DNA of 64,000 nt. Origin: Mesostigma viride (taxonomy: Eukaryota; Streptophyta; Mesostigmatophyceae; Mesostigmatales; Mesostigmataceae). A program made the position numbers and the translations under genes. Location of the stretch: positions 629,501 to 693,500 of the forward strand of contig RPFO01000240.1 of assembly GCA_009746045.1 (NCBI GenBank), written 5' to 3'. Positions 2,027 to 57,710 of this stretch are shown here, piece by piece; position 1 is the stretch's first letter, and every line of letters starts with the position of its first letter. Below the pieces are notes generated by a model. That model did not search any database. It saw only the letters and a program-made list of their open reading frames with translations, and was not told the DNA's origin.

Positions 2027-2030
2027 TTAA

Positions 2031-22167: not shown

Positions 22168-22539
22168 ACAGAGGGCTCTAGGCCCGACCTGAGGGTGTTG
22201 TCCCTCCGGTATATAGAGTCGCCCTCAGATTCTGGCCAGTTGATTGGTCGTTCTTGGTCCTTGGTACTGATTTGTTTACTCTGTGTGTCCTGCCCAGTGC
22301 CGTCCCCCCCCGGCAAGGACTCTGTTCCAGGCAGTTAGGGGAACCTCCCACCAGGCTTGGTGCTGGCTAACCCTACACCACCCGGCGTGGTGGTGAAACC
22401 GAGTTAACATGTTGGTGCTTTGTACCTTGGATGGCCTGTCGATTGTGTTAGGCTTTGTTGGGTGCTTTAGATCCTCCTTCTCCTTTGGTTTCATCCGTGT
22501 ACGTAGGGCGAGGGCTCCCTACCTTTGTGGGGGGGAAGG
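22168..22539 (+). other. gypsy 3' untranslated region and polypurine tract (copy 2)
   Basis: Non-coding and matches 6229-6598. The purine run GGGGGGGAAGG abuts the LTR. Confidence 0.8.
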
Positions 22540-23112
22540 TGTTACGTCGCGTAACTTTTGTTGTTGTTACGGACGTAAATTAGGTCCTTTGTGCCTCAGC
22601 CATTTCGAGACAGTCCGTTGACTTTCTTAAGCTTACGTGTAGTTAGGACCTTTTTGGCCGGTTGGTACCGGGCCTTGTGACGTGGCAATCGTACAGTATG
22701 GTGGCTTGGTGCAGTCGCGCCGCGCTGCGTACTTTAGTAGTGGTCCTTTATCCTCCGTTTGAACCTTGTGGACATGCGTTGGTCCTGTAGGCGAGGGTCG
22801 GTGTCGGCCCGAGCATACACGCATGTCGGCGATCATTTATGCAGCGGTTGTCCTTCGTGAATCGCACTCGGCGTGTATTATGGAATTGTAATACATCGTT
22901 TTGGGTCGTGAATTTACCAGTGTTTACTTCGTAGTGTCCCGGCATTATTTGGTATATGGCGTACAGTAACCGCATGTATCGGAATGCATTGAGAGCAGAG
23001 TCGTCGCGTCCTAGGTCTTATAGCCAATACAGCTCCTCATCGCTAGGTACCCTCACTAGTTTAGGTAAGGTTAGGCGCGGGGTTTGGGATCGAGTAGAGC
23101 CTGGGCGTAACA
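22540..23112 (+). repeat. gypsy 3' LTR (copy 2)
   Basis: 573 bp, TGTTACG...CGTAACA, a perfect inverted terminus. It differs from 6599-7171 at very few bases, indicating recent insertion or recent tandem duplication. The next base starts unrelated copia-like sequence. Confidence 0.93.
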
Positions 23113-23420: not shown

Positions 23421-24783
23421 ATGCCTCGTGGCAAACCGGGCGACGGCGACAAGGGTGAGGCGGAGGCACCGGCTGGCGACAACCAGGAGCCTCGGAAGGA
23501 CAAGGAGCCGCTGGTGGGAGAAGCGATCCCAGCCAGCGACGGCGATGGGGGGGGGGAAGCGACCAGGCAGCAAGAGGCGGCATGAAGACTCGGTGGAGGA
23601 GGCGCGCAAGGTGCGGGCGACAGGGCCATCTGATGCAATAACGGTGGCGAATGGGCAACCAGCCGTGGAGAAGCGTAAGAGGGACACCTCCGCTGACGGC
23701 AATGGTAAGAGGCTTCATGTGGATGTGCCCTCCCCTGTGCCTGCTGGACCAAGTGGTGTTGTTGTTGTGACACCCGCTGTGGTGGAACCAGTAAAGGCGC
23801 TGCCAGGGTCGAGGCCTCACATGAGTGCAGTCACTCTCATGAATGGACAAAAGCCTCTTAACCCGCCACTAGCACAGGAAGCTTTGGACAAGTGGCTAGA
23901 GGACATGGAGCTTGTTGTATTCTCCGTGGACCCCACTGTCAACCTAGTGCAAGTGTTTCACTCATCCACGTGCAACAGGGACTCAGCAGAGCGTGTCAGG
24001 GAAAAGGCTAGGACTGGTGTCAAGGATAAGCAAACCTGGGCACAGTTCCTGGATGGGTTGAGGGAGGAGTTCTCTGACAAGGTTCTCAACCTCACCAACT
24101 ATTATAAACATCAGTATGACACCTTTGAGATAGTGGGTCCTGTGGCAGAGGAATGGGCTAGGCTCAACCGTATCAGGGACAAGGGGGCCAAGTATGGCTT
24201 CCTGGTCACAGATAGGGCCTTGGCAGACTATTTCCTGGACCGTATGGGTCTGAGTGTTGATGGTAGGAACGGTGCCCGCATGTTTCTTAACCAGACTGAT
24301 GGCTCCTTGCGTGCTCTGGAGCTTGTAATCCTCAGCATAAGGAAGCCAGATCCTGCCTGCAAGGCTATCCAGTCCCATGGCAGCAATGCCACCTCCGCTG
24401 TGCAGGGCCAAGGTGATGCCCCCGGGTACCCAGCCCGTGATGGGGCAAGGCCTAACAATTAGCGTAAGCGCTTCAGGCGCCAGAGGCAGGGGGCTCAGGG
24501 TGGCAAGGGTGCAGGTTCCCAAGGAGGGGTTGGGAGCCAGCAAGCTGGTGGTCAGCAGGGTAAAGGTGGCCAAGGGCAAGGCAAGGGCCAAGCTCAAGGC
24601 AACCAGGGCAAGCAGGGTGGGCAGTCTCAGGGAGGCCACGGGAAGCCTGGCAAGGGTGGGGCTGGGTCTGGGAAGAAGGGTGGAGCGTGTTTTGTGTGTG
24701 GCAAGGAAGGTCACTGGCGACGTGAGTGCCCTGACAAGAAGGCCAAGCCTGCTGGGGCAGGGGGCCAGCCTGGGCAGCAGTGA
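23421..24783 (+). pseudogene. gag: Element A gag with CCHC zinc knuckle
   Basis: The ATG at 23421 (MPRGKPGDGDKG) is in a different frame from the main body. A frameshift at the G-run near 23550 joins them. The body is capsid-like and helical (WLEDMELVVFSVDP; TWAQFLDGLREEF; ALADYFLDRMGL). An in-frame TAG at 24460-24462 follows, then a Gly/Gln/Lys-rich tract and an intact knuckle CFVCGKEGHWRRECP (CX2CX4HX4C, about 24692). It ends TGA at 24781-24783, still in frame with the integrase ORF. Gag-pol could thus be joined by stop read-through, or these stops are simple decay. Confidence 0.8.
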
Positions 24784-24831
24784 CTAGCTACATCATCCCC
24801 TGTAAATAGTCAATCACCCCTAGGGGAAGGT

Positions 24832-26727
24832 GTGCTGGATGTACATAAGGACGGGGGTGTGCCCCTTGTGCAGCACCAAGGGTGTAAAGATGTTGTTCTT
24901 CCACTGGATTGCAATAACAATGCTGCAGCTGAATTCCCTATGCCTCATGCAGGTGGTGGGTCTCCAGCAGGTGCTGGCCTGGAGGGCCAAGGGACCTTGC
25001 TGGAAGGGCCTGGAGCGGTCCAGGGTGCAGGGCCTGGCTTGGGGCGTCAGGATGGCCTGCAGGGAAGCCCTGGAACCTCAGGAGTGGATCATGTGTCCCC
25101 ACACACGGTTCAGACGTCTCGCCAGGTCAGTACTGAGAGAGTACTGAGCTATGCTGAGGCTGGCCATAGGTTACATCACATGTTTGGGCACTCTGGGCAG
25201 GCAGCAATGTTTGCTTGGAAGCTAGGTAGGGAGCCTTTGTGGGAGGCATGCCAGGCTGCTGCTGAGAACTGTGGTTGCCAGGAGAATGCTGTTCACCCAC
25301 CTCAGTCCCATGCTAGGGAGCCTGCTAGGGAGCGTGGCGACATCCAGATGGATATCCAGCATATCAGGGGCTTGTATATATTGGTGGAGGTGGACAGGTT
25401 CAGTAGATACAGGCTGATAGACGTTCTGCCTGGTATGCAGGAGCACCACTTGTTGTTGGGTATGAAGGCCCTGGTCCCAGGCTTTGGGGTGTGCAAGAGT
25501 GTGCAGGCAGACTTGCAGTTTGACTGTTTGCTCAAGCATCAGGACCAGCTGCCTTGTAAGCTGGTAGTAGTCCCCAGGGAGAGTCATGGGCAGCAAGGGG
25601 CTGTAGAGAGATCCATACGTGAGGTGAAGACAGTGGTGCTAGCGGCAGAGACAGTGCCACTTGTGGCATCTGCCTTAGAGAGGGCAGCCTGGTGTAAGGG
25701 GATAGAAGAGCAGCTGAACCACAGAGTTAACTATTACTTTGATGGTGTGGCTGTCTCTCCCCTGGCCCTGCAGTATAGCGTACTGCCTGAGAACGTGGTG
25801 CAGGCCAGTCTTAGGAAGGCAGATAGGTTATTTGCCCAGCTGAGACGTAAGGACAAGAACTGGAATGTGCTGAGGCCTCAGGTGGGGCTGAAGGTCAGGA
25901 TGTGGAAGGAACCATCTATTCCAGGCAAGCGGGGGAAGTGGCAGGATGGGGTTGTCACTCGTGTGGAAGAAGCTAACAGATCTTGCCTGGTGGCTTTGGA
26001 AAAGGATCCAAGGCACGTGTACAGGTTGTCCTGGGCTCATGTCAAGGAAAGAAGGCCACGTGCAATCTGGCCTGCAGACGGGCCAGGCCCTCCCAGCTGG
26101 GTTGAGGAGCCAGGCCAGAGCCAGGCAGCAGCAGCTAACAATCCTCTGGTGGTGGATGATGGTCTGTCCCTGCTGGAAGATGACGAGCAGGAGGAGGCTG
26201 CTGAAGCAACTGTCACAAGGCCAGAGGGGACGGGGCAGCCACCTAAGGCCCGGGGGCCTCTCATGGCGGACGTCATCCGAGCACTCATGCGCAGCAAACA
26301 TGATCCCAAGGTATCCAAGCTCACGGGGTGGGGGTCGTGCTGGGCAGCTACAATGGAGGTAGATACCAACTCACAGGTGTCTGTCATCAGGGAAGAGGAT
26401 GCTGTAGGCTTACAGATGTCCCATCCCAGTTGCCTTGCTGTGTCTGATTTCTCAGGAAAGGTGTCCATGAAGATCCTTGGGGAAGTGAGTGTGCCTATCT
26501 TAGGGGTGCCCACCACGTTCTGTGTGGTAGAGGGCTATCAGGGGCCTGCCATTCTGGGTCAGAACTTCTTGTGCATGCCAGGGGTTACTTTGACCTCTGA
26601 TGAGTTGGCACTAGAAGGCAGGGGCAGCCTCCCCCTTGAAAGATATCACTATTCCCAGGGTCTTGCAGTGGCGGTGAAGGCTGTTAGAGTCAGCCAGCTG
26701 AGGGTCCTCAAGGTCAGGAGCCCATAG
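24832..26727 (+). CDS. pol: Element A integrase fused to downstream protease-like domain
   Basis: One uninterrupted 631-codon ORF. Residues ~110-150 are a zinc-binding H-H-C-C region (GHRLHHMFGHSG ... ENCGCQ). The catalytic core follows with candidate acidic triad D174 (QMDIQH), D227 (QADLQF) and E259 (GQQGAVERSI, codon at 25606). A C-terminal strand-rich module comes next (KVRMWKEPSIPGKRGKW; YRLSWAHVKER). After an acidic linker, residues ~508-600 form a retropepsin-like domain: MEVDTNSQVSVI (D at 26362), SDFSGKV, VPILGVPTTFCVV and AILGQNFL. In known copia elements protease precedes integrase; here it follows, and the active-site Gly is Asn. The next ORF is RT. Confidence 0.8.
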   Translation: MLDVHKDGGVPLVQHQGCKDVVLPLDCNNNAAAEFPMPHAGGGSPAGAGLEGQGTLLEGPGAVQGAGPGLGRQDGLQGSPGTSGVDHVSPHTVQTSRQVSTERVLSYAEAGHRLHHMFGHSGQAAMFAWKLGREPLWEACQAAAENCGCQENAVHPPQSHAREPARERGDIQMDIQHIRGLYILVEVDRFSRYRLIDVLPGMQEHHLLLGMKALVPGFGVCKSVQADLQFDCLLKHQDQLPCKLVVVPRESHGQQGAVERSIREVKTVVLAAETVPLVASALERAAWCKGIEEQLNHRVNYYFDGVAVSPLALQYSVLPENVVQASLRKADRLFAQLRRKDKNWNVLRPQVGLKVRMWKEPSIPGKRGKWQDGVVTRVEEANRSCLVALEKDPRHVYRLSWAHVKERRPRAIWPADGPGPPSWVEEPGQSQAAAANNPLVVDDGLSLLEDDEQEEAAEATVTRPEGTGQPPKARGPLMADVIRALMRSKHDPKVSKLTGWGSCWAATMEVDTNSQVSVIREEDAVGLQMSHPSCLAVSDFSGKVSMKILGEVSVPILGVPTTFCVVEGYQGPAILGQNFLCMPGVTLTSDELALEGRGSLPLERYHYSQGLAVAVKAVRVSQLRVLKVRSP

Positions 26728-26738
26728 CTGAGGACCTG

Positions 26739-27431
26739 TTGATAATCCCAACCACCTTTGATCCACGGCAGTTAGGGGTAAACAGGTACCAGATAGCTGC
26801 TCACAGTCCTATTCCCTGGCGCCAGCTAGTCGAGATGATGCAAAGCCCCAAGATGGCTAAGGCATGGACTCTTGGCTTTGTTGCTTCCGGGCATGAGTGG
26901 ATAGTTTCCAACTGTGCAGAACCTGTGGATGAGCTGCCAGAAGCTCACCAGCTGCTCAGATTGATGTTTGTCCTCAAGCTCAAGGAGGTAGATGGTGTCC
27001 AGGTGCCACACGTCAGACCAGTTGTAACCGAGTATCATGGCACTGGCCAGTTGTTAGATGAGGAGCTCTATACTCCAGGGATGCTGCATGACACGTGGAG
27101 GATTCTGCTGTGTATATTTCTGTCTTTTCTGGTTAAGGGTGTGCCCTACAGCTCTGTGCTGATTGATTTCAAGAGAGCTTTTCTCAAGGGTGACCAAGAT
27201 CAGGCCAGGCAGACTTGGAGAGATATCCCTCCTTTCTTTGTGACTGTACCTGCTGTATGGAGAGCAGAGATAAAGGCCAGGTACCTGAGAATTCTAAAAG
27301 GGTTGGAAGGTCTCAGGTCCAGTCCCATCATCTGGAGAAAGAGCCTAGAGAAATTCTTGAAGAATACTTGTGGGTTTTCTGTGTCTCCAGTGGATCCTTG
27401 TCTGTTCCAACTTCCAAGGGTCACACAATGA
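26739..27431 (+). CDS. pol: Element A reverse transcriptase, N-terminal part
   Basis: Copia-type RT fingers and palm: LMFVLKLKEV, RPVVTEYHG, ELYTPGM, the first catalytic Asp in LIDFKRAFLKGD, then LEGLRSSPIIWRKSL and DPCLF. The frame ends in a stop near 27429. The next frame, overlapping from 27370, carries the second catalytic box, so a frameshift (decay or programmed) lies around 27400. Synthesises cDNA from element RNA. Confidence 0.85.
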   Translation: MIIPTTFDPRQLGVNRYQIAAHSPIPWRQLVEMMQSPKMAKAWTLGFVASGHEWIVSNCAEPVDELPEAHQLLRLMFVLKLKEVDGVQVPHVRPVVTEYHGTGQLLDEELYTPGMLHDTWRILLCIFLSFLVKGVPYSSVLIDFKRAFLKGDQDQARQTWRDIPPFFVTVPAVWRAEIKARYLRILKGLEGLRSSPIIWRKSLEKFLKNTCGFSVSPVDPCLFQLPRVTQ

Positions 27432-28407
27432 CCTCCCTGTCTTTGCCTCCCTGCATGGTGATGACCTGCATCTCATAGGTCCACCAGACTGGGTTGAGGC
27501 TGTTTTGGCCAAGATCCAGAAGCGGTTTGAGCTGGGTAAGATACAGCACATGGTGGAAAATGAGCCTATGGTCTTCTGTGGCATGCAGGCTACGTTGTTC
27601 CAAGCCAAGGGCTCGTGGTTCATCAGGATGGAGGGTGGTAAGGACTATCCACAGCAGATTATAGATGCATTGCAGGAGCCCATCACGCAGGCTAGGTGTG
27701 CTACCATCAGGGGCATGCTGGCATGGCTTGCAAGTATATGTGCCCCTGACTTGCTGGTTTTGAGTCGACTTACTGATTCCCAGCTGGTTGAGGTGGGTGC
27801 TGAGAGTGTGGTGCAGGCTGTCATGATGTCTCCCCCTCTTATACTGGGTCCTGTGGATTTGTACAAGCCCCTTGACATGGTTCTCTATGTAGACAGTTCT
27901 ATGGATAATAGGAAGGTCACAGAGGTCAGGGGCAGGGCAGCAGCATTAGTTACCCTGGAGCAAGATCGCACCTCACTTGTTACCTGGTACAGTCGGTTGC
28001 AGAACAGGGTTACACCCAGCAGTGATATTGCTGAGTGCAGGGCAATCTGTGAAGGGCTGCATACTGCTCTTTACTTGAGGGAGCTCTTCTACCAGCTATG
28101 TCAAGTGGCTTCCTGTAGGTTGCAGCTGCACACACTGGTGAGGACTGATAGCATGGGCATGGTGCAATTTGTGCACAGGCAGCTGGCCAGGAGCAGGGAC
28201 CTTGACTACTTGTTGCTCAAGGAGATGTCCTACCTAGCTCACATTGAACATGTGCCTGGTGTGGACAACCCTGCAGATGCCCTCACCAAGCTGGAGGAGA
28301 AGGCGGAGAGGCAGTACCCCTGCTCCGTGGGCTCATGGACCCCTTACACGGGCGGCCATAGAGACCAGGCCTTGCTTCAGCTTGGGTGTCCCCAGTGGGC
28401 TGCTTGA
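27370..28407 (+). CDS. pol: Element A RT C-terminus (HGDD box) and RNase H
   Basis: Starts with SLHGDDLHLIG: the RT catalytic pair DD lies in HGDD (27454-27465), where Y-V-D-D is usual in copia RTs. The connection domain contains MVFCGMQATLF and MLAWLASICAPDL. Copia-type RNase H follows with LYVDSSMD, IAECRAI, RTDSMGMVQ and the C-terminal signature NPADALTKLE. The frame then runs on to 28407. RNase H removes the RNA strand during cDNA synthesis. Confidence 0.88.
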   Translation: MGFLCLQWILVCSNFQGSHNDLPVFASLHGDDLHLIGPPDWVEAVLAKIQKRFELGKIQHMVENEPMVFCGMQATLFQAKGSWFIRMEGGKDYPQQIIDALQEPITQARCATIRGMLAWLASICAPDLLVLSRLTDSQLVEVGAESVVQAVMMSPPLILGPVDLYKPLDMVLYVDSSMDNRKVTEVRGRAAALVTLEQDRTSLVTWYSRLQNRVTPSSDIAECRAICEGLHTALYLRELFYQLCQVASCRLQLHTLVRTDSMGMVQFVHRQLARSRDLDYLLLKEMSYLAHIEHVPGVDNPADALTKLEEKAERQYPCSVGSWTPYTGGHRDQALLQLGCPQWAA

Positions 28408-29146: not shown

Positions 29147-29527
29147 GTGGACGAATGCACGTGCGGAGTGGGTGCGATGGCGGTCACGCGGTCGGATAAA
29201 AAGCTGGAACGCGAGAGTATTTTGGCCCTGCAAGCATGGCAGGTTGAGTCCAAGTGTTCCGACATAAAATTAGATGATCTACTCTCGCGCGACGGTCTCG
29301 TAGCGGCCGGCTCGGCTGGGAAAAACCACGAACCTCCGACCGACCGCAACGCAGCCAACAATATTTTTCGTCATGCAGCATACCGCCATTTTTCGGCCCG
29401 GATGGGGTGGATCAACGCTGATGGAACTGCTAAAAAGCTTCCTAAAGCATTCAGCGACATCGTTCGCGATCGATTTCCAGATTCCCGGGCTAATTACACC
29501 GGATTTATCGAAACTGCCGATCGCTGA
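29147..29527 (+). CDS. Small ORF resembling the P2X7 C-terminal-like domain of transposons
   Basis: 126 codons near the 5' end of the TTAA transposon. The C-terminal half (FRHAAYRHFSARMGWI, then LPKAFSDIVRDRFPDS and YTGF) follows the pattern AYR-xF ... LP-xx-xx-IR-xx-FP ... Y-xGF of the P2X7-intracellular-like domain, which is widespread in transposon-rich genomes. The N-terminal cysteine-rich part expected of that family is not evident. Role unknown; it probably acts with the transposase. Confidence 0.4.
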   Translation: MDECTCGVGAMAVTRSDKKLERESILALQAWQVESKCSDIKLDDLLSRDGLVAAGSAGKNHEPPTDRNAANNIFRHAAYRHFSARMGWINADGTAKKLPKAFSDIVRDRFPDSRANYTGFIETADR

Positions 29528-29532
29528 CATTT

Positions 29533-32022
29533 TTGCGCTGCGATGGCCGCGCCCACTTTTCGTGCATGATGGGCCGTAAAAACGCCAGAGCGAAATCCCA
29601 GCGGCTTCGCTTTGAGCGACAGGCTGCCGGAGAGCAGCCTTCGGTGCCTGCGCCTCTGAAAAGGGGCCGTGGCAGACCGAAGGGTTCGAAGACAAGGGTT
29701 GGTGTCGGCAGGCCTAAAGGGTCTAAGAAAAAGAAATGGCGATCATCCACGCCAGTTTCTGTGGGCATGGCGGATGTTTCAGCGGCGGGGGTCGGCCAGA
29801 ATGCTGGGAATGCACCGAGCAGCGGCGAGATGGAGCTTGGTGCGGAAATTCTCGGCGATGAAGGTATGCCAGCCACTGGGCGTAAGCGAGCGCTCGTGAG
29901 CCCTTACACCCCGTCTCCGAAGAAGCTTGACAGCCGTGGGCATCATTTGAGGCAGGCAGCCGATCAGCCGCCCCCTCCCCCCTGCGATCCCATTTCATGG
30001 CAGCGCATTGTTGTTGATACAGTGTGCCTTGAAGGAATTGTTGGCCATTTAGCCTGCCCTGAATGCCATGAGAAGTCCCTGAAGCTGGGGCATAAGACGC
30101 AGCCTGGGCCCTGTGCATCTTTGCTGCTGGTGACATTTTGCACAAATCCCCACTGTCGGGCGGAGAATAAGAAGCCTTGGCACCATGCAGAGCCAGCGGA
30201 GGTGGGGGGAGGCCTGGCAAGGGTGGGAATGTCACGTGCTTCCAAGAATGCTCTCCTGGCCCTGAACACTGTCATCCATGGTGTCACACGGAGTGACCTG
30301 CTGCGTGTGTGGAGCACGATGGACATGGAATTCCCCAAGCATGGTAGCGTGTGGCGGAAAGATGTGCTTATGGTCGCGCGCATTGTGATTGAGTACCTGC
30401 ACACTGTGATAGAGGAAAACCGTGAGGTAGTGAGGCAGTGGGAGCGGGATAATGGCAGGTTCCCTGACCTGGATGGGTTCCTTCGGCAGGCCACGCGCGC
30501 TACCTTTGATGGCAGCTGGGCTAATCGTGGGTACAGGTCACTGCTGGGGCAGCAACTGTTAATCCACGACGTGTTGAAGCTTATCATAGCCCACCATGTG
30601 TCCAGCAAGTGGTGTGCCTTTTGCATGCGTGTGGCGGGCAAGAAGGATGCAGATGGTAAGCCTAGAGTGCCAGCCCCCCATATGTGTTTCAAGAACCATG
30701 CGACCACAAGCAAGAGCATGGAAGGCGCGGGTGCAGTGGTGATGTTGCTAGATGTGATGTCGCTAGAATCGGGGGTGTTCACAGGTCAAGTGATGGAGAG
30801 GGCAGGGAGTGAGCAGGGACAGAAGGGCAGCAAGCCTGAGAGCCAGCGGCTTTGGGTGACCAAGGTAGTGAGTGATGGGGACACGAGTTGGTATGCACAA
30901 GTGAGGGAGAATCAGGTGTTGAAGGAGGCAAATCACATCCCTGACAAAGACAATGACCTGAACCACCTGTCCATCAACCTGCACAGTGCACTAGTGGCCA
31001 CGAAGAAGACGTGGCTGTCTATACTAAGCACAAGAATGTGCTAGGAGAGAAGACCCACATCTGGCACATGCTGCGGGGTTACCGTGCCTGCATACGCTGC
31101 AACTATCACATGGGTGCCACGTGGCTGCACGGCGCATTGGCCAACGCGCTGGAACATTATCATGGCAACCACACGCATTGCAATGCATGGCCCAACCACA
31201 TGAAGCAGAAAATTGGGGAGGTGGTGCAGCGCCAATGGTGTGGTGTGCATACCAAGAAGAAGAACCTGCCGCCTTGGGGGGGGCGGGCCTGGCTGCCTCG
31301 TGTGTCGGAGAAGGGTGGGGTGGTGGTGCAGGTGGACGAGCTTGTCCGCGAGGTCTGGGGCAGATTCAGCTCGATGGAGGTGCTGGAAGGGTGCTGCCAC
31401 AATAGCTCCTCCAACCACAACGAGTTCACTCATTCACAGCAAGTGCTTGCCACACCTGGGGGGAAGGGGGGCTTTGCTGGGGGGCTGTACGCTGCCTTTT
31501 GCGCGGTAGGTGCCCTGCGTGCCCCAAAGGGCGAGACATGGTTTATTCCAATAGCGGGGAAGCTGGGCATTTCCATGTGCCCTGAGGCACTAGCTCAGTT
31601 GCAAGAGCTGACTGAGGCAAGGTTGCGCCAGCAGAAGAGGAAGAAGACACGAGTTCAAGCAGCAAAGGGCGCAGGGCAAAGCCATCCGGGCTGGGGTTTA
31701 TTGGGATGAAAACAAGAAGGACAAGTCCACCTATGCTAAGGGCACAGCGTATGGGGGGGTGGGCCCTGCCACAGGGGGTGTGGATGTGTGCGACAGTGAC
31801 AGTGAGGGTGAGGAGGAATATATGGATGATGTTCCCTGCCTTCGCTGTGCTATTCCCACCCCGCTCCCTGGCAATAATTTTCTGCTGTGCAGCACGGTGG
31901 GCTGCGAGGGAGGGCTTCACCTCAAGTGCTGCAACCCTCCCCTGCGTCGCGTGCCCGATGGGGACTGGTTTTGCCCCTTGTGCACGGGGCAGAACGACAT
32001 CACTGAGTCGGATAGTGAATAA
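29533..32022 (+). pseudogene. AT-hook / DDE transposase / PHD finger protein, frameshifted
   Basis: Three frames in series. 29533-31044: two AT-hook-like motifs (RGRGRPKGSK, GRPKGSKKKK; about 29656-29735), then a CPEC...CTNPHC zinc region. The DDE core follows with HMCFKNHATTSKSMEGAGAV and VSDGDTSWY (GAT at 30874), then HLSINLHSAL. 31040-31660 in another frame continues the catalytic domain (YRACIRCNYHMG, HYHGNHTHC, RQWC). From about 31660 the first frame resumes and ends in a PHD finger, C4HC3: CLRC...CSTVGC...HLKC...WFCPLC (about 31834-31983). The two shifts could be decay or unrecognised introns. The domain resembles the Mutator-like transposase domain shared by Kolobok-type elements. Confidence 0.7.
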
Positions 32023-36242: not shown

Positions 36243-36725
36243 AGTTGGTTGGAGACCCATCCAGGGTCCACATGGGTCCTCAGAGATAGAGGATCTTGTA
36301 CAGATTACTACAATATACTTTATTGTAGTATTGGGCCAATGGCTGTACTTCACTAGTACTCGCCAATGGGATAACGCCACGTAGAATGTGTGGGCGTCTC
36401 CCAGGCCTCCACGTCACCGGCTGGTCAAGGGCCGGTGTAGTCCTGTCAAGAGGACTGAGCCGACTATCGGCCTATCATGTATGCGCATCTGCCTTGGTAC
36501 CTCCTAGAGGATTCTAGAAGTATCTAACACGCGGCATGCACTGAACTACATGGAATGCATGTCCACGTAGGATATTCAGCAAGACTGATGAAGGTGCCAA
36601 GCGCAACAGGTTCTTATGCGCAACGAAGACGAATTATGCAACAACAGCAATAACGTATGAGAACAATAAAGAGAACGTTCATTCCATGCTTTCTGATTTA
36701 CATCGCATTCCATTTATTTGCAACT
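36243..36725 (+). repeat. Copia B 5' LTR
   Basis: 483 bp, starts AGTTGG and ends GCAACT, with AATAAA near 36665. The AGTTG/CAACT termini are inverted but are not the usual TG...CA. Sequence after it (TGTTGTATTC) is not a standard TGG primer binding site. Confidence 0.93.
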
Positions 36726-38463
36726 TGTTGTATTCATTGTCATTTCGACGACCGAGGGCAGTTTCCGTTAAAGCCTAGCCCGAGTGAGCATAGGCTTTGC
36801 CGAATTACTGTTGGCTCTGGCCCCGGTGAGCACAGGGACGACAGGACTAAACTTCGAGCCAGCGACCATGCGTACGTTATGGCTAGACGGAGTTTAGAAG
36901 GCTCGGAATCTGACTCGGACAGCCTGCATCTAATTCGGTTTCGATTCTTCATCAAGTTGATGTGCTGTAACCAGTTTACATCAGCCGGTTCAGGCGTAGG
37001 GTGTATAAACTGGTTGATAGCATATGGTTGAAGAGATTTTCCCTTCTGAGCGGAATCTTTTTCAGCCTCGATTTGGATCCAAGCTGTTGGAATGTCAGCG
37101 CAAGCCATCGAATCGTCAAGAACGGTTTGAATTGCGGTTTGTATTGCTTTGGTTTCGGCGGCCTGCATGCCTTTTGTCGACCATGCTCGCCGTCAGGCTG
37201 AATTGGATATCATGCCGCTTTGGATACTTACGAGTATCATGCATCATAAAAGGAAGTTGCTTTGTGTTTTGCAAAGGCGGTTGAGTGATGAACGATTGGA
37301 TTTCAGCATCATGCCTGGTTTCTCGGCAACATAAAGCGACGCTGTCTTTATTTCAACGAGCTTTTTTGCTATAGTAACGGATGTTTTCTGCATGTTACTA
37401 ATTGGCTCTTTTTCTTTTGGAAAGGCCGTGTGTGCTGTAAAGAGCTGGTTGGAAACCGTGGAGAAGGCTGGACATGTGCCTCAGGTGTGCCATGTTTTGT
37501 CTTTCCACCATGCAGGAAACAAGCCATGACAACACAAGTACACGCCCAGTGACGTGATGCTTATACGTAAGAAGCTGGAATATCCAAGCTGGAGCAAAGC
37601 CTGATTGAGATGCCCATGTGTGCATCTATCTCTCTCTCTTGCCAAGTCCTCTCTTTTATACGAGTGTTATGAAAAACATTCATGAGGACTAAACCCTGGT
37701 AGTAAAGGAAGATCTACCAGGAAGTAGGACCCCTTGATGAGGATCCAAAGATGCCAGCTGTGCCCCGGCTGGTGAGCACGGCGGTATTAAAATCCCGTCA
37801 TTGTCTAGGGCCCCTGGGGAGGTTCCTGGTACATGGACATATGTGCCCTGTGAGCATGTATATGATGGGATGGAACCCCTGGCAGTGAAGGCCTGCCAAG
37901 GCATAGCCCCCCACAAGAGGCTCGTTCCATTATAATTAACGCGGATTAATTAATGATCCTCTCTGTTTATATAACCCCTACAGCGTCCTTATGGACGTTG
38001 ATGAGAGTGGTTTTATGGCAGAGGAGGCCTGCCAGGTGGTAGGGGCTCCAGCAGTAACCCCTACTAACCGTAAAGCTGCCCCAGTGAGCAGCAGTAAAAG
38101 TGCCCCTGTTTGTGGCATTCCTATCCATGCCTGGATTAAAAGAGCACCCCAGAGGGAACTCTTTCTGTAAATAGTACATGTGGATCTGCTCCTGTTTGTA
38201 GACAGATGCCACACGGTGTTGCCCAAGTGAGCAACATATCTGTGAACAATACATGTGGTGCAGCTCCTGGTTGTAGCCAAGCACCCATTGATATTGTCAA
38301 CAGTCAAGCTCCTCAGAGCAATAATCCTTGTTATATTGATAATAAAAACTTGGACTCTTGCTCTGCCAGGAACGTGGATGCCCGTCCATGTCCTGAAGAG
38401 CCATTGCCTAATGATTGTATTAATCTTAGGACTTTGGCTAAGACTCTGATCTGCCTTTCTTAA
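36726..38463. other. Copia B internal 5' region without recognisable gag
   Basis: About 1.7 kb where gag is expected. No capsid-like or zinc-knuckle sequence was found. A minus-strand ORF (36740-37168, 142 codons) has protein-like composition but no recognised family. The + frame at 38206-38463 (Cys/Asn/Pro-rich, 85 codons) leads towards the integrase remnant. Confidence 0.45.
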
Positions 38464-39060
38464 GGATTGTGGGTCGTGAAGATCACCAAGCCCAAGGCAA
38501 GGTTGACAGATATATACAGGAGCTTAAGAAGTTGGTAATCTCTGGGGATTATCCTGAGATGTTTAAACCAACTTTTGCTGTCAGGTGTTTGGGTGCTGCA
38601 AGGTGGCCTCTACCCTGATGACATAGTGCAGGCATGGAGTAAGCAGAGGTGGGCACAGTATGCTCATCTCTGTGAAAAGGATAAACAGAGAGGAGAATCA
38701 TTAAAATTTAAGGTGGGAGACCAGGTGATCTTCCACAAAGAAAATGCTCCTGGTAAACGCGGTTATTGGCAGGGTCCAGGGACCATAACCTCAGTTGACC
38801 CGGAGATGAAAACTGCTGATGTGGTCTGGAATGGTACCACTTATCATCTGGCTTGGAATAGATTGAAGAGAGATCCAATGAACGTTCAAAATCCCCTGGT
38901 GAATATGGCCTCTGGAGAGGCATCTGGATCTCCCAATCTTTCCTGTCCACCTTTTGCCAGTGAACAGCCTGGACTCCAACTACCAGAAAGGGCGGCCTCC
39001 CATCAACTGGAGCCTACTACTCAGCAAGCTCAGCCTAGGATATTGACTGGGATATCATAG
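38464..39060 (+). pseudogene. pol: Copia B integrase remnant (core end and C-terminal module)
   Basis: Starts at IVGREDHQAQGKVDRYIQEL, matching element C's REDHGNMGMIDR. The Glu expected as third catalytic residue is Asp. After a frameshift near 38570 the C-terminal module follows (FKVGDQVIFHKENAPGKRGYW; YHLAWNRLKR), ending TAG at 39058-39060. The catalytic D-D half is missing. The protease-like domain continues in the same frame after the TAG. Confidence 0.75.
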
Positions 39061-39663
39061 GATGATATATTTGAAGCTGACTTGTTGGATAGGGTGTCTG
39101 ATCAGCACCGGAAGCTCCGGCCGTTGGAACATGGGCTTGAGACCCCTGGGCAGGTGGATAACATATTTCAGTCTGAACAGCCAAAGCTTGGATTCAATTA
39201 CCCTGGTAATAAGCCATTGCCCTTGGAGACTGATGGGAAAATACCAGCCCAAGGAAGACAAGCTGAGGAGGGGTTGTCCAGGTTGAACACTCAGCTCGGC
39301 AAGAGGGGCAATCCTCAAGAGCTTCGGGATATTGTAAAGAAGCTCAAGCCTTCACTAAAGATTGCCAAAATAACTTCTCTTCTAGAGAAGGGCATGGACC
39401 TTGATAGCTTTGATGTGGATACCAAAGCAGAGGTCTCTGTCACCTCGCCCTTTAATGCTTTGCTGGATAAGTATTCCCTTGAACCCAGTCCATGGACTAA
39501 TGTCCAAGACTTTGCGGGTAACACTAATCATCAAGTTCTTGGGAATATCACTATCCCATTCTTGGGTGAGTCTTTGACACTTTGTGTTGTTGATGGCTAC
39601 AAGGGGCCCACTCTCATTGGCCAGCCATTCTTGGTGACTCCCGGTCACTGTTACCATTGTTGA
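39061..39663 (+). CDS. pol: Copia B protease-like domain, downstream of integrase
   Basis: After a linker, SFDVDTKAEVSV (D at 39418) aligns with VDTNSQVSV of A and VDTQASVSI of C. It is followed by VQDFAGNTNHQVLG, IPFLGESLTLCVVDGY and TLIGQPFL. The retropepsin outline is clear, but the active-site Gly is Lys. The ORF lies between the integrase tail and RT, confirming the family's order. It closes at TGA 39661-39663, and RT is in another frame. Confidence 0.72.
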   Translation, partial: DDIFEADLLDRVSDQHRKLRPLEHGLETPGQVDNIFQSEQPKLGFNYPGNKPLPLETDGKIPAQGRQAEEGLSRLNTQLGKRGNPQELRDIVKKLKPSLKIAKITSLLEKGMDLDSFDVDTKAEVSVTSPFNALLDKYSLEPSPWTNVQDFAGNTNHQVLGNITIPFLGESLTLCVVDGYKGPTLIGQPFLVTPGHCYHC

Positions 39664-39739
39664 TGGCCCCAATAACACAAAGAGTCTCCTAAAGACCCAT
39701 TGTGACCCGGCAATTCCTCTGGAATCATTCAGATGTTCC

Positions 39740-41467
39740 TTGCCTCTTGAAATATTCCAGAAGGCACATTGGAAGACCGCCTGTGTCGGTTCAGTAATAA
39801 AAGGAGCAGAATGGGGAAGGGATATACCCCCAGCTTCTGAGCTGGTAGAACCTGCCCAGCTTGACAGTGTGACTACTCTTGGTCTCACAAAAAGGTCATT
39901 TGCTGCTCATAGCCCCATGTCCTTTGATGATGTAGACCTGGACTGTCACACTTTCGCTGGCCTTGAGGCCTGGCGAGTAGCATTGGCGCGTGCGCTCCAG
40001 GAGTGGCAAACGCTGGATGTTTTTGAAGGCATTTCAGAACCTCCACCCAATGCTCAAATGCTTCAGTTGCGTTTTGTATGCAAGATGAAGAGCAAGCTTA
40101 ATGAGCCTCCCATACCAAACGCACGTCCAGTCGTAACCCAGTTCCATGGTACTACAGACTTTGATAAGGAGGAGCTGTATACTCCTGGCCTGTCACATCC
40201 TGTTCTCAGGCTTATTGTTAGTCTGTACCTTGGTGCTTTGGACTATGGCTTGGATTATGGAGCAGAAGTTGATGACTTCACCAGGGCCTTTTTGCATGGT
40301 GATCCTCAGGTGGCCAGAGCCACTTGGCAATCTCAAAGACCCTGTTGTGTCAAGACCCCAGCATGCTGGTTAGCTGAAGTAGGTTATCCCTACATGCAGC
40401 CTAAAGTGGGCTGGGAAGGACTGGTCAGCAGTCCAGTCATTTGGTATGAAACCATTGCTCCTGCCATCCAAGAGAGATGTCAGATGCAACAATCTCATCT
40501 TGCCTATTGTCTCTTTGTAGGGCAATCCAAGGGACAACCCACCTGGGCTACCTTACATGGGGATGACATGCAACGCATTGGTCCCAAGGGATGGTTGAAT
40601 GAGACCTATAAAAGGCTCAATGACAAGTCCCCTATTGGTACCAGAGCATGGTTTACTAAAAACAGCCAGGTACCTTACTGTGGCATTGGCTGTACCCTTT
40701 TCCAAGATGACAAAGGATGGCATCTTAAGCTGCAATCGGCGAAGGGGTATAAAGAAAAACTAATAACTCAGTTGCCCAAGAGAGTAACTGAGGAGAATGC
40801 CCCTACGGTTAAAGGTCAACTAGGTTGGCTGGCTGCCACAACCAACCCTGACCTGGCAGTACAGAGTAGGATGCCAGACTCTGTTGTTGTAGGAGAAGGA
40901 AGGAGGCGCCTGGAGAGCTGCCTCAATGAATCTCCTGACTTGGTGTTGTCTGGTGTAGACTGGCATAGGCGTATCATCATAGACGCCTACACAGATGCTA
41001 GCCAAGAGTCTAGATCTGCCAACAAGATTGGTGCCAGAGCCGGATGCCTGATCACCATCAGGAATGAAGGCAAACAGCCCTCGTTGGTATGCTGGTCCAG
41101 TAACCTTCAGAGGAGGCGGTTTGCTGGCATTGACACAGCCGAGTGCAGGGCATACGCCATGTGCATTCGTGACGCCATATACATAAGAGAGCTACTCTTA
41201 TGGTGTCTGAGTCAGATAAGACCTCAACCTGTAATTGATGTCAGGGTTTATTGTGATAATAAGCCCGTGGTATCTTTTATCAAGAATGAGAGGGCCACTA
41301 CTACTGACTTGGACTACCTTGTGGCAAAGGAGTTGTCCAGCCACTGTATGACCATACATCTACCAGGACATTCAAATCCTGCTGATGCTATGACCAAGCT
41401 TCCACGACTGGCCCTTAATGGGTACCAGTTGTTACGGTCCATGATGGCTGGGGAACCCTTGTCATAA
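39740..41467 (+). CDS. pol: Copia B reverse transcriptase and RNase H
   Basis: An intact 575-codon ORF. RT: LQLRFVCKMKSK, RPVVTQFHG, ELYTPGLSH, first Asp in EVDDFTRAFLHGD, then WEGLVSSPVIWYE and catalytic TLHGDDMQRIG (40556-40567). RNase H: IDAYTDASQES, IDTAECRAY, VYCDNKPVVSF and NPADAMTKL. It is the best-preserved RT of the A/B/C family and shows that HGDD is the family form, not damage. Confidence 0.92.
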   Translation: MPLEIFQKAHWKTACVGSVIKGAEWGRDIPPASELVEPAQLDSVTTLGLTKRSFAAHSPMSFDDVDLDCHTFAGLEAWRVALARALQEWQTLDVFEGISEPPPNAQMLQLRFVCKMKSKLNEPPIPNARPVVTQFHGTTDFDKEELYTPGLSHPVLRLIVSLYLGALDYGLDYGAEVDDFTRAFLHGDPQVARATWQSQRPCCVKTPACWLAEVGYPYMQPKVGWEGLVSSPVIWYETIAPAIQERCQMQQSHLAYCLFVGQSKGQPTWATLHGDDMQRIGPKGWLNETYKRLNDKSPIGTRAWFTKNSQVPYCGIGCTLFQDDKGWHLKLQSAKGYKEKLITQLPKRVTEENAPTVKGQLGWLAATTNPDLAVQSRMPDSVVVGEGRRRLESCLNESPDLVLSGVDWHRRIIIDAYTDASQESRSANKIGARAGCLITIRNEGKQPSLVCWSSNLQRRRFAGIDTAECRAYAMCIRDAIYIRELLLWCLSQIRPQPVIDVRVYCDNKPVVSFIKNERATTTDLDYLVAKELSSHCMTIHLPGHSNPADAMTKLPRLALNGYQLLRSMMAGEPLS

Positions 41468-41737: not shown

Positions 41738-42220
41738 AGTTGGTTGGAGACCCATCCAGGGTCCACATGGGTCCTCAGAGATAGAGGATCTTGTACAGAT
41801 TACTACAATATACTTTATTGTAGTATTGGGCCAATGGCTGTACTTCACTAGTACTCGCCAATGGGATAACGCCACGTAGAATGTGTGGGCGTCTCCCAGG
41901 CCTCCACGTCACCGGCTGGTCAAGGGCCGGTGTAGTCCTGTCAAGAGGACTGAGCCGACTATCGGCCTATCATGTATGCGCATCTGCCTTGGTACCTCCT
42001 AGAGGATTCTAGAAGTATCTAACACGCGGCATGCACTGAACTACATGGAATGCATGTCCACGTAGGATATTCAGCAAGACTGATGAAGGTGCCAAGCGCA
42101 ACAGGTTCTTATGCGCAACGAAGACGAATTATGCAACAACAGCAATAACGTATGAGAACAATAAAGAGAACGTTCATTCCATGCTTTCTGATTTACATCG
42201 CATTCCATTTATTTGCAACT
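41738..42220 (+). repeat. Copia B 3' LTR
   Basis: 483 bp, apparently identical to the 5' LTR. It is followed by the ATTAA duplication and then gypsy pol. Confidence 0.95.
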
Positions 42221-51554: not shown

Positions 51555-51900
51555 AGTTAAGGACCCGACCGGCTGAGCTATGGCGGTCGGTCACGTTGAG
51601 CTTGGGATAAGGTGAACACAGAGAACTACTGTCGGAGCTGGCCAACCACTGGTTTATGTCTTAGCCAGCAAAGCCTATCCGGTTAGCCGTAACCGTGGGA
51701 CAAGCTAGCTGTCCGTACCGACCCGGATAAGGCCCCGGACTGGGGCCTAGGTGACGCCGGCCCTAGGCGCCGCCCTTAGACCGGTCGACCGCATCGGACC
51801 GCCGGATTATAGCCGGCGGCTTAGCGGACGCTAGCGGAAGGCGTGCGGACGGACATGGGGAACTTAGAGCCAGATCCTAGGGCTCTAGAGTTACTCAACT
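51555..51900 (-). repeat. Copia C 3' LTR
   Basis: 346 bp. On the coding strand it starts AGTTGAG and ends CTTAACT. It differs from the 5' LTR at about three bases. Confidence 0.95.
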
Positions 51901-52278
51901 CCGACATACTCTTTTGTTCTTTGATTAATTATCAAAATAATTACATCAAATGCAGACCATACAAAACCCTCTAAGGTAGGGAACTCAAGGGGGCCTCAAG
52001 GCCGTCAAAATCACCACGGTATCGATCCGCGCCCTTGTGATCACACATGAATAGTGATGTAATAAGTATCGAGCAAAAAACCAACTATGCCACCAGACAA
52101 AAGGTGACCCATTTATTAGGACCAGTGACCCGCCGACGGGCCCAAGGCACCGTCCAACGTGGCTAGGGTATGGTCAGGACAAGCAAAAAAACTACCACCA
52201 TGATATTCGTGAATGCTAGCAACACAGGGTGAGTTATGGCTGTATTCATAAAGCGCCTGAGCCGTAACCCTGTGTGGC
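51901..52278 (-). other. Copia C 3' UTR and purine tract
   Basis: Non-coding. On the coding strand it ends AACAAAAGAGTATGTCGG just before the LTR. Confidence 0.6.
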
Positions 52279-53894: not shown

Positions 53895-54595
53895 TCCTGA
53901 GGCTGAATGATGGACTGGACGAGCGGCGGTGTGGAAAACGCCGCCATCGGTAAGCGCCGCACGACGCCGGGCTGCCCTACCACCACCCCCAATGGAGCGT
54001 GGTACTCGCGAAGCGGGATGCTGCCCACCCCCGCGACCGACAGCAAGTCAGCGGACACTGAGAACCCCGGGTATGATACGAAAGGTTCGCCCAGCAAGGC
54101 CACATCCTCGTAGCCATCCACGACGTGAAACGGCGTGTCAATGCCCAACACCGGCAGCACCACCATCCCGGTAACTTGATATGCCGAAGTGCCTGCAAAG
54201 TCGGTCACCGATTTGTACGGCGACTCTAGCACTGGATACAGGGTGGCCGCCCGACGAGAGATAATAGACACGGATGCTTGCGTGTCCACAGCCACCAGCT
54301 GCCACGGTCTACACGTAGGAAACAAGGCTGACTTAACCGGCCTGACCCCCTGTGAGAGAGTTTTGACCTGAGCCACCCCTGATGCAGCTTTCGCTTTAAG
54401 TGCCTGAGCACGCCACAAGGCCGTGACCGTTGAAGCCAGGTCCCTAGGTGGGCGAGGCGCATGGGCAGGACCCTGACCCTCCGGCGAGGCCACGCTAGGC
54501 GGGCCTCCCACATTATCCGTGGCTAGCACAGGAGGTGAGTCACTACGTGCACTAGGTCCCGTCAAACCCACCCCATCCTCATCCCACCCATCCAC
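53837..54595 (-). CDS. pol: Copia C protease-like domain, downstream of integrase
   Basis: 252 codons. After an acidic/Pro-rich linker, LVAVDTQASVSII (D at 54286) starts a retropepsin-like fold: VTDFAGTSAYQVTG, LPVLGIDTPFHVVDGY, ALLGEPFV, then IPLREYH, matching LPLERYH of A. The active-site Gly is Gln. It overlaps the RT ORF by about 60 bp in another frame. Confidence 0.75.
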   Translation of the reverse strand: MDGWDEDGVGLTGPSARSDSPPVLATDNVGGPPSVASPEGQGPAHAPRPPRDLASTVTALWRAQALKAKAASGVAQVKTLSQGVRPVKSALFPTCRPWQLVAVDTQASVSIISRRAATLYPVLESPYKSVTDFAGTSAYQVTGMVVLPVLGIDTPFHVVDGYEDVALLGEPFVSYPGFSVSADLLSVAGVGSIPLREYHAPLGVVVGQPGVVRRLPMAAFSTPPLVQSIIQPQDWHPRSFGLHSYYWRRIAL

Positions 54596-54704: not shown

Positions 54705-55811
54705 CTACCCACCCCAGTGCCCTGTTGGCTGCCAGCTCACTCTCCATGCATCCCCTTGCTTATAGCCTGCCACCGATGCCCATGGTACCCTATACACCCG
54801 ATCATTCCACTCTATGTCTATGACCCGCAGCGGCCAGTCTAACTTTGTGATGGCCCCAGGACCCTGCATGGTGCCCCGTTTGCCGCTGGGCGAGCTCTTC
54901 TTGTGGAACATGACCAACTGCCCGACCTCAAAAGCGCTAGACAAATCAGGCAGCGTGGCATCCTTGAGCCGCAGCTTGGCGGCGGTATCCTGTAGATGCT
55001 GTTGGTATGCCTCTACTACCTCGGGTGAGTAGGTGCCCGCTGACAGCCCCCGAGGCGTGACCAGCCCAAAGCCCTTGACATCGAGCACGTGCCTATGGTT
55101 GCACACATGCATGAGCTCTTTGCACCACGCCGTCTTGACCGCGTAGGACTTGCCATGTGGGTTATCCTGTCGCTTGGCTGCCACAGTCTTGACATAGCTT
55201 ACAGTGCGATCTATCATGCCCATATTGCCGTGATCCTCACGCCCCACGATGACCACGGCCTCCATCCCCGGCAAACCTTGCACACAGCGGAACTGCTGGT
55301 CTAGCATGAGCTCCACTACGGGATGAAAGAAAGCCAGGCTGATCTTGATAGCCCTGTGCAGGTCAGCCTCAAACATGTGGGGCAGCGGCTCAATGTAGGT
55401 GACCTTGCTGAACCTATCCTTGACTATGAAATAGGTGTCCCCCCCTTCCATGTGCATGACATCCCCCACAAGGTACCCTCGCTCCAAGGGTGGAGTCTTG
55501 GCATGCCGCCTACGCGACTTCTTCCTGATCTTGATGCAGGCAGGACACTGAGCACGCACATTCTTCAGCTCGTTGTATAAAGGTGCCCCCAACATGTGTG
55601 CCCCCTCTACCTCGGCTTGGGCCTCATGCCCGTATGCACGGTGCATCTGGTATGCTAACAGTTTCAGGGTGACAGCCTGAGGTGCAGTGGCATTGTCAGG
55701 ATTCTCAACAGGTGGGGTGACTACTGGGGTAGTGACATTGGCTAACTGGGCAGCTTCAGAGGCTGCACGAAAGGCCGCCCGTGTGAGCACCTTGCCAATG
55801 TGAAGATCCAC
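54705..55811 (-). CDS. pol: Copia C integrase
   Basis: 368 codons. Zinc region: YQMHRAYGHEAQ ... AQCPACIK. Core: GDVMHMEGGDTYFIVKDRFS, LMLDQQFRCV, then IVGREDHGNMGMIDRTV, where the expected third catalytic Glu is Asp. C-terminal module: FEVGQLVMFHKKSSPSGKRG and YRVPWASVAGYK. The catalytic core and C-terminal module align well with A, and the module with B. Confidence 0.85.
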   Translation of the reverse strand: MDLHIGKVLTRAAFRAASEAAQLANVTTPVVTPPVENPDNATAPQAVTLKLLAYQMHRAYGHEAQAEVEGAHMLGAPLYNELKNVRAQCPACIKIRKKSRRRHAKTPPLERGYLVGDVMHMEGGDTYFIVKDRFSKVTYIEPLPHMFEADLHRAIKISLAFFHPVVELMLDQQFRCVQGLPGMEAVVIVGREDHGNMGMIDRTVSYVKTVAAKRQDNPHGKSYAVKTAWCKELMHVCNHRHVLDVKGFGLVTPRGLSAGTYSPEVVEAYQQHLQDTAAKLRLKDATLPDLSSAFEVGQLVMFHKKSSPSGKRGTMQGPGAITKLDWPLRVIDIEWNDRVYRVPWASVAGYKQGDAWRVSWQPTGHWGG

Positions 55812-56755
55812 ACTAGGGTGGTGTGTACCGAGAACATCTGCCCGCCCAGCATTCTCTGCACTGTCACAACATTCCTCATAGGCCCAACCGCCCCAGTATC
55901 TAGCTGGGGTGCTGCAGTAGTGCTTGGTCGCTCGGCGTTGTACACACCCGACCTAGAAGACACCACATTGCTTAGGTCACGCATTGTAGACCCGTGCTCA
56001 GGAAGCACGTGATCCTGGCGCGACAGAGCCAGAGCAGCATCAACGGATTGCGTGAGCACATCACGGAATGAGACAGAGGATGCAGTCACGTTGCTTTTAG
56101 GAACGACGTCAGGCTCTACGACGGCCCGGTTCAGCGTGACGCATTGAGCAAAAGAAGGGGTATCGAGCGTGCTCTCACCTGACTTTCGTGCTGCCCGTCG
56201 CTCTGCCCACTCCTCGCGTGTGCCGTGGACGACGATGCGCTTGGCCTTGCACGCCTCCACGCTGTGACCACGCAGAACGTCGTGGCACTTGCGGCAAAGG
56301 TTGTCCTCGAGCTCCAGGTCCGGGCGAACTCGGCAGTCATCCCGGACATGGCGACGTCCGAAGCAGCGCTCACAGCGTTGCTTGCGGTCAGTAGACGCCC
56401 CCTGCTGCCGCTTGGCCGGGGGATTATCACCCTGCTTGGCGTCGCCACCATGCCCGCGCTTGCGCCCTCGCTGGCCCCCGTTGTTGCCGTGGCCGACGAC
56501 CTTTTCAGGATGGCCGTAAGCTCCGACCGCGTAATTGGAGCCTCTGCGCCTGAAGAAGAAGACGCGCCGGTATCCACCTTGCGCAGGGATGGCAGAGCGG
56601 CCGAGGCAGTCGGCTTGGACTGCGCACTCTTGAAGCATGAGATCAAATACAGCATGCCCTCGTCGAAACTGACGGCACTCTTCTTTTTGAGTTCCGTCGC
56701 TATGGTCAGATGCACATCCGACGAGAGGTCGCATTTCTTGAGAAATCGATTGCAC
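55742..56755 (-). pseudogene. gag: Copia C gag C-terminus with two zinc knuckles
   Basis: Two Cys-His boxes: CERCFGRRHVRDDC (CX2CX4HX4C) and CRKCHDVLRGHSVEAC (CX2CX6HX4C), about 56300-56400. A Ser/Val-rich linker follows. Near its end (about 55889-55900) is LDTGAVG, then NVVTVQRMLGG and FSVHTTL, then in the next frame DLHIGKVL. These words resemble the spacer between protease and integrase of normal copia elements. The DTGA may therefore be the last trace of a protease once in the canonical place, or chance. Confidence 0.65.
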
Positions 56756-57345
56756 AGGAAAATGGGCTTGAGAGTATCTAGCAGCTTGTGCTTGTGCACG
56801 AAGACCTGGAAATCACGTGCAGCCCCGGGCAAATTTGCCTTATTAACTGCATAGCCCTCGAAGTCATTGAAGGCTTGCTCGTCGGCCTCTTCCTTAGACC
56901 GCGACAAGTGGGCATCTAGACCGTTGTAAAAAACTTCCCAGGTTTGTTTGTTGTCGTCCGCAATGCGAACTAGATTGGCAATGTTTGGGTGCTTGGTTGT
57001 ACTGCAGAATACTGCACAGAACTTGCCAATCAGCTCCGAATCTTTGTCTGCGCGTCCATCGCGCAGACGCTTGAGAGCAGCTAGAAAATCTGCTGCGTCG
57101 TCCGCCGTATAGTCGGCAGGTAGATCAGCGGGCACCTCCGTTTGCTTGAGAGGGCCGCGATTCAGTGCGTCGTCAGCAGCAAGCATCAAATGCTTGAACT
57201 GCTTGGCCAGTTCAGGTTGCGCCACGAGGGTTTGCATCAACCTCGTGGCCTCGTCCGCACTAAAGCGTGGCAGGACGGTCCCTGCGGCCTCGCCACTTGG
57301 CGTATCTGTGTGTTCGCCCGTGCGGCTCCGTGTACCGGAAGCCAT
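56131..57345 (-). pseudogene. gag: Copia C gag (capsid part)
   Basis: Starts ATG 20 bases inside the 5' LTR (MASGTRSRTGEH). Helical capsid-like body: ATRLMQTLVAQPELAKQFKH; TWEVFYNGLDAHLSRSKEE; ELKKKSAVSFDEGMLYLI. It passes into the zinc-knuckle frame through a shift near 56500-56600. The very short leader leaves almost no room for a standard primer binding site. Confidence 0.75.
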
Positions 57346-57364
57346 CGGGAATTTTATGAATACA

Positions 57365-57710
57365 AGTTAAGGACCTGACCGGCTGAGCTATGGCGGTCGG
57401 TCACGTTGAGCTTGGGATAAGGTGAACACAGAGAACTACTGTCGGAGCTGGCCAACCACTGGTTTATGTCTTAGCCAGCAAAGCCTATCCGGTTAGCCGT
57501 AACCGTGGGACAAGCTAGCTGTCCGTACCGACCCGGATAAGGCCCCGGACTGGGGCCTAGGTGGCGCCGACCCTAGGCGCCGCCCTTAGACCGGTCGACC
57601 GCATCGGACCGCCGGATTATAGCCGGCGGCTTAGCGGACGCTAGCGGAAGGCGTGCGGACGGACATGGGGAACTTAGAGCCAGATCCTAGGGCTCTAGAG
57701 TTACTCAACT
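57365..57710 (-). repeat. Copia C 5' LTR
   Basis: 346 bp, AGTTGAG...CTTAACT on the coding strand. It abuts the TCCTC duplication (57711-57715) and gypsy RNase H. Confidence 0.95.

Follow-up and report, generated by a model that had tools for sequence, protein, structure and literature searches.

The order of the domains encoded by pol serves to tell the families of long terminal repeat (LTR) retroelements apart, and the locus described here raises the question of whether that order is fixed. We analysed a window of 64,000 nucleotides from the early streptophyte alga Mesostigma viride (assembly GCA_009746045.1, contig RPFO01000240.1, positions 629,501 to 693,500 of the forward strand). The window is rich in retroelements, and three of these, here called A, B and C, are the subject of this report. 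We propose, with a probability of about 0.8, that they form one lineage of copia-like LTR retrotransposons in which pol runs integrase (INT), integrase C-terminal barrel, retropepsin-like domain (in the position of a protease, PR), reverse transcriptase (RT) and RNase H (RH). The order is gag-INT-PR-RT-RH in A and C and INT end-PR-RT-RH in B; the canonical copia order, gag-PR-INT-RT-RH, was found in none of the three. Their features are as follows.

Element A
23422..24462, forward: gag (capsid-like) frame, ending in TAG, with the frame continuing beyond; from the list of open reading frames (ORFs), no Pfam family above cut-off
24688..24729, forward: nucleocapsid zinc knuckle CX2CX4HX4C; PF00098 at 30.2 bits, above cut-off
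25114..25800, forward: integrase zinc-binding region and core; tblastn to C at 30%, rve at 14.9 bits (E 0.032), under cut-off
25870..26058, forward: integrase C-terminal SH3/Tudor-like barrel; structural matches
26293..26685, forward: retropepsin-like domain, VDTNS at 26359, ILGQNF end; PF13975 and alignment
26739..28317, forward: RT and RNase H in two overlapping frames; RVT_2 at 20.5 bits, under cut-off, copia RT and RNase H profiles at 31.2 and 21.9 bits

Element B
36243..36725, forward: 5' LTR, AGTT...AACT; LTR pair, target duplication ATTAA
36729..36739, forward: putative primer-binding site TGTATTCATTG, 3 nt past the LTR; from sequence
38460..38880, forward: end of the integrase core and C-terminal barrel, in two frames; tblastn
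39316..39660, forward: retropepsin-like domain, DVDTK at 39409-39426; aligned with A, C and the gene model P0002, no Pfam match
39638..41467, forward: RT and RNase H in one open frame of 609 codons, HGDD at 40556; copia RT and RNase H profiles at 22.3 and 28.6 bits
41688..41698, forward: complement of the putative primer site (11/11 nt) in the gap between RNase H and 3' LTR; from sequence
41738..42220, forward: 3' LTR; LTR pair

Element C
57365..57710, reverse: 5' LTR, AGTT...AACT; LTR pair, target duplication GAGGA
57353..57364, reverse: putative primer-binding site TGTATTCATAAA, immediately past the LTR; from sequence
56131..57366, reverse: gag frame; ORF list, no Pfam family
56249..56374, reverse: two zinc knuckles, CX2CX4HX4C and CX2CX6HX4C, in a frame other than that of gag; read from the sequence, no Pfam support
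54756..55688, reverse: integrase and C-terminal barrel; tblastn to A and alignment, no Pfam integrase family
53999..54340, reverse: retropepsin-like domain, VDTQAS at 54272-54289, LLGEPF end; AlphaFold2 model, fold matches, weak PF13975
52297..53921, reverse: RT and RNase H in two frames, HGDD at 53181-53195; tblastn, copia RT and RNase H profiles at 10.4 and 31.5 bits, no Pfam match
52241..52252, reverse: complement of the putative primer site (12/12 nt) in the gap between RNase H and 3' LTR; from sequence
51555..51900, reverse: 3' LTR; LTR pair

To assess the order, 14 pieces were compared with the window by tblastn. A, B and C are collinear in integrase, integrase barrel, retropepsin-like domain, RT and RNase H at 30-41% protein identity, B contributing the integrase end only. 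The integrases of A and C share 30% over 328 columns and the integrase ends 33-38%; the retropepsin-like domains share 36-37% (A-C), 32-36% (A-B) and 31% (B-C), the RTs 31-38% and the RNases H 34-37%. As pairwise identity per domain is only 30-38%, the elements are too diverged to be recent copies of each other, in agreement with a preliminary description of this DNA. That description had also read integrase followed by a retropepsin-like domain in one unbroken frame of 631 codons in A, and this reading holds. The frame is open from 24784 to 26727 (647 codons from stop to stop; 631 counted from the GTG at 24832), and contains the zinc site (LHHMFGH, 25171), the catalytic D (25345-25359), D (25504-25521) and E (25597-25614), and then the VDT motif at 26359. 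Reading is broken between PR and RT and again inside RT (DFKRAFL at 27165, HGDD at 27454, AECR of RNase H at 28030). Gag, knuckle and integrase of A lie in a common frame, interrupted by two stops between gag and pol, the TAG and a TGA after the knuckle (24781-24783); no LTR of A was found within the 64-kb window. The same order had been claimed for B and C, and their collinearity bears this out in part, but B is without gag and most of the integrase, and C is without a single open frame. On these alignments the INT-PR-RT-RH order is very probably a real feature, shared by the members of a diverged copia-like lineage.

The only protein relatives retrieved were two Mesostigma gene models, P0002 and P0003 (EukProt, label jgi/Mesvir1), each protein search having scored only the roughly 8000 candidates that shared most words, so that remote relatives could escape. 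P0002 is 97% identical to B and carries the PR-like domain, RT and RNase H in a single protein; P0003 is 68% identical to A. Viral contigs scanned with protein or alignment queries gave no relatives, and a PDB sequence search with pol pieces or alignments gave no match below E 0.3. Gypsy elements, duplicated segments and broken frames abound in the region, as would be expected if the elements were chimeras or assembly artefacts in which unrelated pieces stand side by side by chance. Such an origin is highly improbable in view of an order common to three elements that are only 30-38% identical, B and C moreover being flanked by matched LTRs and target duplications, and of P0002, a separate record in which three of the domains belong to one protein.

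B spans 36243-42220, with LTRs of 483 nt that are 100% identical and a perfect 5-bp target duplication (ATTAA). C spans 51555-57710 on the reverse strand, with LTRs of 346 nt that are 99.1% identical and a perfect 5-bp target duplication (GAGGA). The LTRs of both end in AGTT...AACT, not in TG...CA; PMC5659011 describes LTRs with ends other than TGCA in some plant elements. With identical LTRs and an open RT-RNase H frame, but without gag and almost without an integrase core, B is a young defective copy; it was either mobilised by another copy or lost gag and integrase after insertion.

The copia nature of the polymerase was assessed with controls from a scan of genome contigs, which gave 16 loci, taken as contaminant eukaryotic copia elements. 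Five (L035, L036, L039, L040, L043) were excluded for a frame below 300 aa, and 11 were used for RT, nine of these for RNase H and eight for integrase and PR. Viral contigs, scanned by pattern for such controls, gave 28 loci, none of which was recognised as a copia element by motif scan. The copia RT profile (11 sequences) scored A at 31.2, B at 22.3, C at 10.4 and P0002 at 25.2 bits, as against 1.3 and 0.9 for gypsy, and the copia RNase H profile (nine sequences) gave 21.9-31.5 bits, as against -2.4 for gypsy. The catalytic residues of RT and RNase H are kept (DFxRAFL, HGDD, AECR, NPADA). The RT box reads HGDD in all three elements and in P0002, in contrast to [YF][VLI]DD in 11/11 controls; none of the elements has YVDD. 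Counting against a copia-type RT, the Pfam family RVT_2 is matched by A alone (20.5 bits, under cut-off) and by none of B, C and P0002.

An RT tree was built from 17 pieces: four Mesostigma rows (B and P0002 being nearly identical, with P0002 cut slightly differently), 11 copia and two gypsy rows. A, B, C and P0002 form their own group (95/94, branch length 3.45), which joins the 11 copia rows and not the two gypsy rows, as the copia-like label of the preliminary description would have it. Support for joining the copia rows is only 76/68 and the tree has several long branches (MvC 1.55), so that the lineage may stand either inside or beside the copias. Judged by profiles and tree, RT and RNase H are of the copia type; the lineage shares these and its general build with the copias, but lies outside canonical Ty1/copia. 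Neither hallmark of Metaviridae, an integrase after RT-RNase H and a gypsy RT, was found in A, B or C.

By hhalign the integrase profile is closer to copia (58.6%, 191 columns) than to gypsy (6.4%, 66 columns). The zinc site consists of HH and CXC in A, and of HH and CX2C in C, where it starts at 55646. The catalytic triad is D, D, E in A (31 residues between the last two) and in P0003, and D, D, D in C (29 residues, the third within 55203-55220). In B, where the core end (38460-38549) and the barrel (38698-38880) remain, the third position is again D (within 38496-38513). A model of the INT-PR frame of A, of low confidence (pLDDT 37), matched retroviral integrases by Foldseek at E 1.9e-5 (SIV, MVV, HIV, PFV), which, given so poor a model, is only a hint; there was no retroviral integrase among the 50 VIA matches listed for it. 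For the C-terminal barrel (25870-26058, 38698-38880, 54756-54944) the best structural match is a Tudor domain (PHF1-like). It could be a chromatin-reading tail, or merely an SH3-like one.

The unit that separates integrase from RT is probably a retropepsin, although on weak evidence. A matches PF13975 at 14.5 bits (E 0.056, profile positions 11-90 of 92) and C at 12.7 bits (E 0.2), both under cut-off, and the AlphaFold2 model of the C domain (mean pLDDT 63.3, with blocks at 71-87 over residues 21-80) has fold matches. A fold other than retropepsin, which would have undone the preliminary description, did not emerge, but a model and profile scores of this quality exclude it weakly. The same description took the domain for a relocated copia protease. 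What stands is the INT-PR-RT-RH order, in a lineage apart from the canonical copia controls; relocation itself is unproven. The domain did not score with the copia protease profile, on which held-out control members reached 63-129 bits (n=8), and it did not match PF22936, which is present at 46-90 bits upstream of integrase in 7/7 control proteases tested (seven of the eight, L031 being omitted). Its end in A and C, LG[EQ][PN]F, differs from the NxxSx of 8/8 controls. These observations suggest that the elements may have shed their copia protease and acquired a different type of retropepsin in the interval between integrase and RT, an origin that agrees with the proposed lineage and to which the weak PF13975 matches of A and C also point, that being the family of the window's gypsy-type protease (35720-36286, 43.6 bits). 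We hold such a capture to be a tentative possibility, as the profile link is significant to neither type (probability 0.1% for copia, 0.2% for gypsy). The gypsy and copia proteases miss each other as well (0.5%), and therefore this comparison cannot separate the two origins; relocation is as likely as replacement, the two having about equal weight.

A canonical protease between gag and integrase in intact relatives would tell against the preliminary description. None was found in A and C by PF22936 or by the copia protease profile, nor in P0003, the only further copy to span part of the stretch, no genome-wide search having been possible. The stretch from knuckle to integrase measures 147 aa in A, where one stop interrupts it, and about 200 in C, where the frame changes, compared with 161-174 in the controls (seven with an in-frame knuckle). 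It is long enough for a protease, whose absence is judged from the profiles. This room, together with isolated DSG or DTG triplets that P0003 and C have there, would also suit a different reading, namely that the retropepsin-like domain is an inactive relic of the fold, serving structure or RT dimerisation, and that the protease is a diverged gag-integrase domain or comes from the host or another element. In the three elements the glycine of D-T/S-G is replaced by Q, N and K, and in P0002 by K, which speaks for such a relic. We nevertheless consider it unlikely, since the Asp, the Thr and the subsequent V-S are invariant, since the domain keeps 34-40% identity from element to element, and since no protease profile is matched upstream of integrase.

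Individual candidates in this region were rejected. The DTG of C (near 55900, reverse strand) and the DSG of P0003 lie about 85 and 70 residues before the zinc site, as against 125-138 in eight controls, and neither is found in A; A and P0003 share part of the stretch, but not the DSG. Another DTG, in the gag frame of C (near 56580), precedes the zinc knuckles and lies in low-complexity sequence.

Several observations weigh against our proposal that A, B and C are one lineage with this order and this protease. The weakest step is the retropepsin-like domain as an active protease, because the glycine of DTG is missing in all three elements (DTQ, DTN, DTK); the retropepsin active-site motif D-S/T-G-A, as given in the available part of PMC6952103, is absent from their domains. 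B supports the order from the integrase end onwards only, gag and most of the integrase being gone, and neither gag nor a further integrase match was found between 36726 and 38460. The coding path of C involves several frame changes, with stops between the INT and PR frames; sequencing indels or decay could account for this. Finally, there is no intact copy and only a single host.

On the proposed reading, the element would be transcribed from its LTRs, and the gag and gag-pol products would assemble into particles. The retropepsin-like domain, staying beside RT, would release integrase from both of its neighbours, gag and RT. RT would start at TGTATTCAT past the LTR, perhaps helped by pairing with the 3' end, and integrase would insert DNA with AG...CT ends at a 5-bp stagger. 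The stretch TGTATTCAT adjoins the 5' LTR directly in C and lies 3 nt downstream of it in B; the stretch after the LTR begins TGT, not TGG. In both elements its complement is found between RNase H and the 3' LTR, with 11 nt paired in B and 12 nt paired in C, and the extra paired bases differ between these very diverged elements yet still pair. The 9-mer arose in 13 (B) and 28 (C) of 20000 shuffled 3' regions, and occurs four times in the window on both strands, all in B and C, against 0.3 expected; these figures are descriptive, as the pairing was noticed post hoc. It could represent an end-to-end pairing like that of Ty1, or a primer of the element's own. In Ty1 RNA cyclisation, CYC5:CYC3 pairs the 5' and 3' RNA ends directly near the primer site, with CYC5 downstream of that site (PMC4974528, in the part available); in B and C, by contrast, the paired 5' segment, recognised in the sequence only, would be the putative primer site itself.

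Compared with known systems, A, B and C resemble Pseudoviridae (Ty1/copia) in RT and RNase H by profile and tree, in their LTRs and target duplications, in the CCHC knuckle of gag and in an integrase that precedes RT and is closer to copia by hhalign. They differ in a protease-like domain after integrase, the lack of PF22936, the HGDD box, the AG...CT ends and, in B and C, an integrase with D for E. With Metaviridae (Ty3/gypsy) they share a protease position directly before RT and the weak PF13975 match of A and C, but integrase lies before RT, not after, and RT and RNase H score with copia profiles, unlike the window's gypsy proteins. In spumaviruses the protease remains beside RT in one product, with integrase at the end of pol. 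The P0002 gene model likewise has the PR-like domain beside RT in one product, a likeness by layout alone.

A lineage departing from the canonical order would demonstrate that pol order is not fixed, and would provide a test case for polyprotein processing with a moved or replaced protease. It would also explain why such elements get overlooked, since no pol domain tested passes its Pfam cut-off. Elements with unexpected domain order were discarded in a large plant survey, according to the available part of PMC6317226. Among the matches listed, no literature description of an INT-PR-RT-type order in copia elements was found; the accessible parts of PMC12440569, PMC11673190 and PMC2774666 mention no copia element of INT-PR-RT-RH order, and copia is not mentioned in those of two M. 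viride papers, PMC7027972 and PMC6947507. The latter states, in the same part, that the M. viride NIES-296 assembly was built from PacBio and Illumina reads. Taken jointly, the features could describe a lineage that is a deep sister of Pseudoviridae and has so far been met in a single early streptophyte alga. It would have lost the copia protease and gained another retropepsin, with a DT[Q/N/K] site, between integrase and RT. Its integrase, in part with Asp for Glu, would insert AG...CT ends, its Tudor-like tail would possibly read histone marks, and its primer or cyclisation partner would be encoded in its own 3' end. That all of these hold together is improbable.

Two further observations concern other parts of the window. 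A segment with a gypsy-type RNase H is duplicated in the same direction, 17644-23112 corresponding to 2-327 and 2027-7171; 17966-23112 matches 2027-7171 at 99.88% and 17644-17969 matches 2-327 at 100%, the first copy having about 1.7 kb extra. The region 29494-32019 encodes a Mutator-like transposase (PF20700, 69.2 bits) and, downstream in a separate open frame, a PHD finger (PF00628, 30.1 bits), and is perhaps a Mutator element carrying a PHD reader domain.

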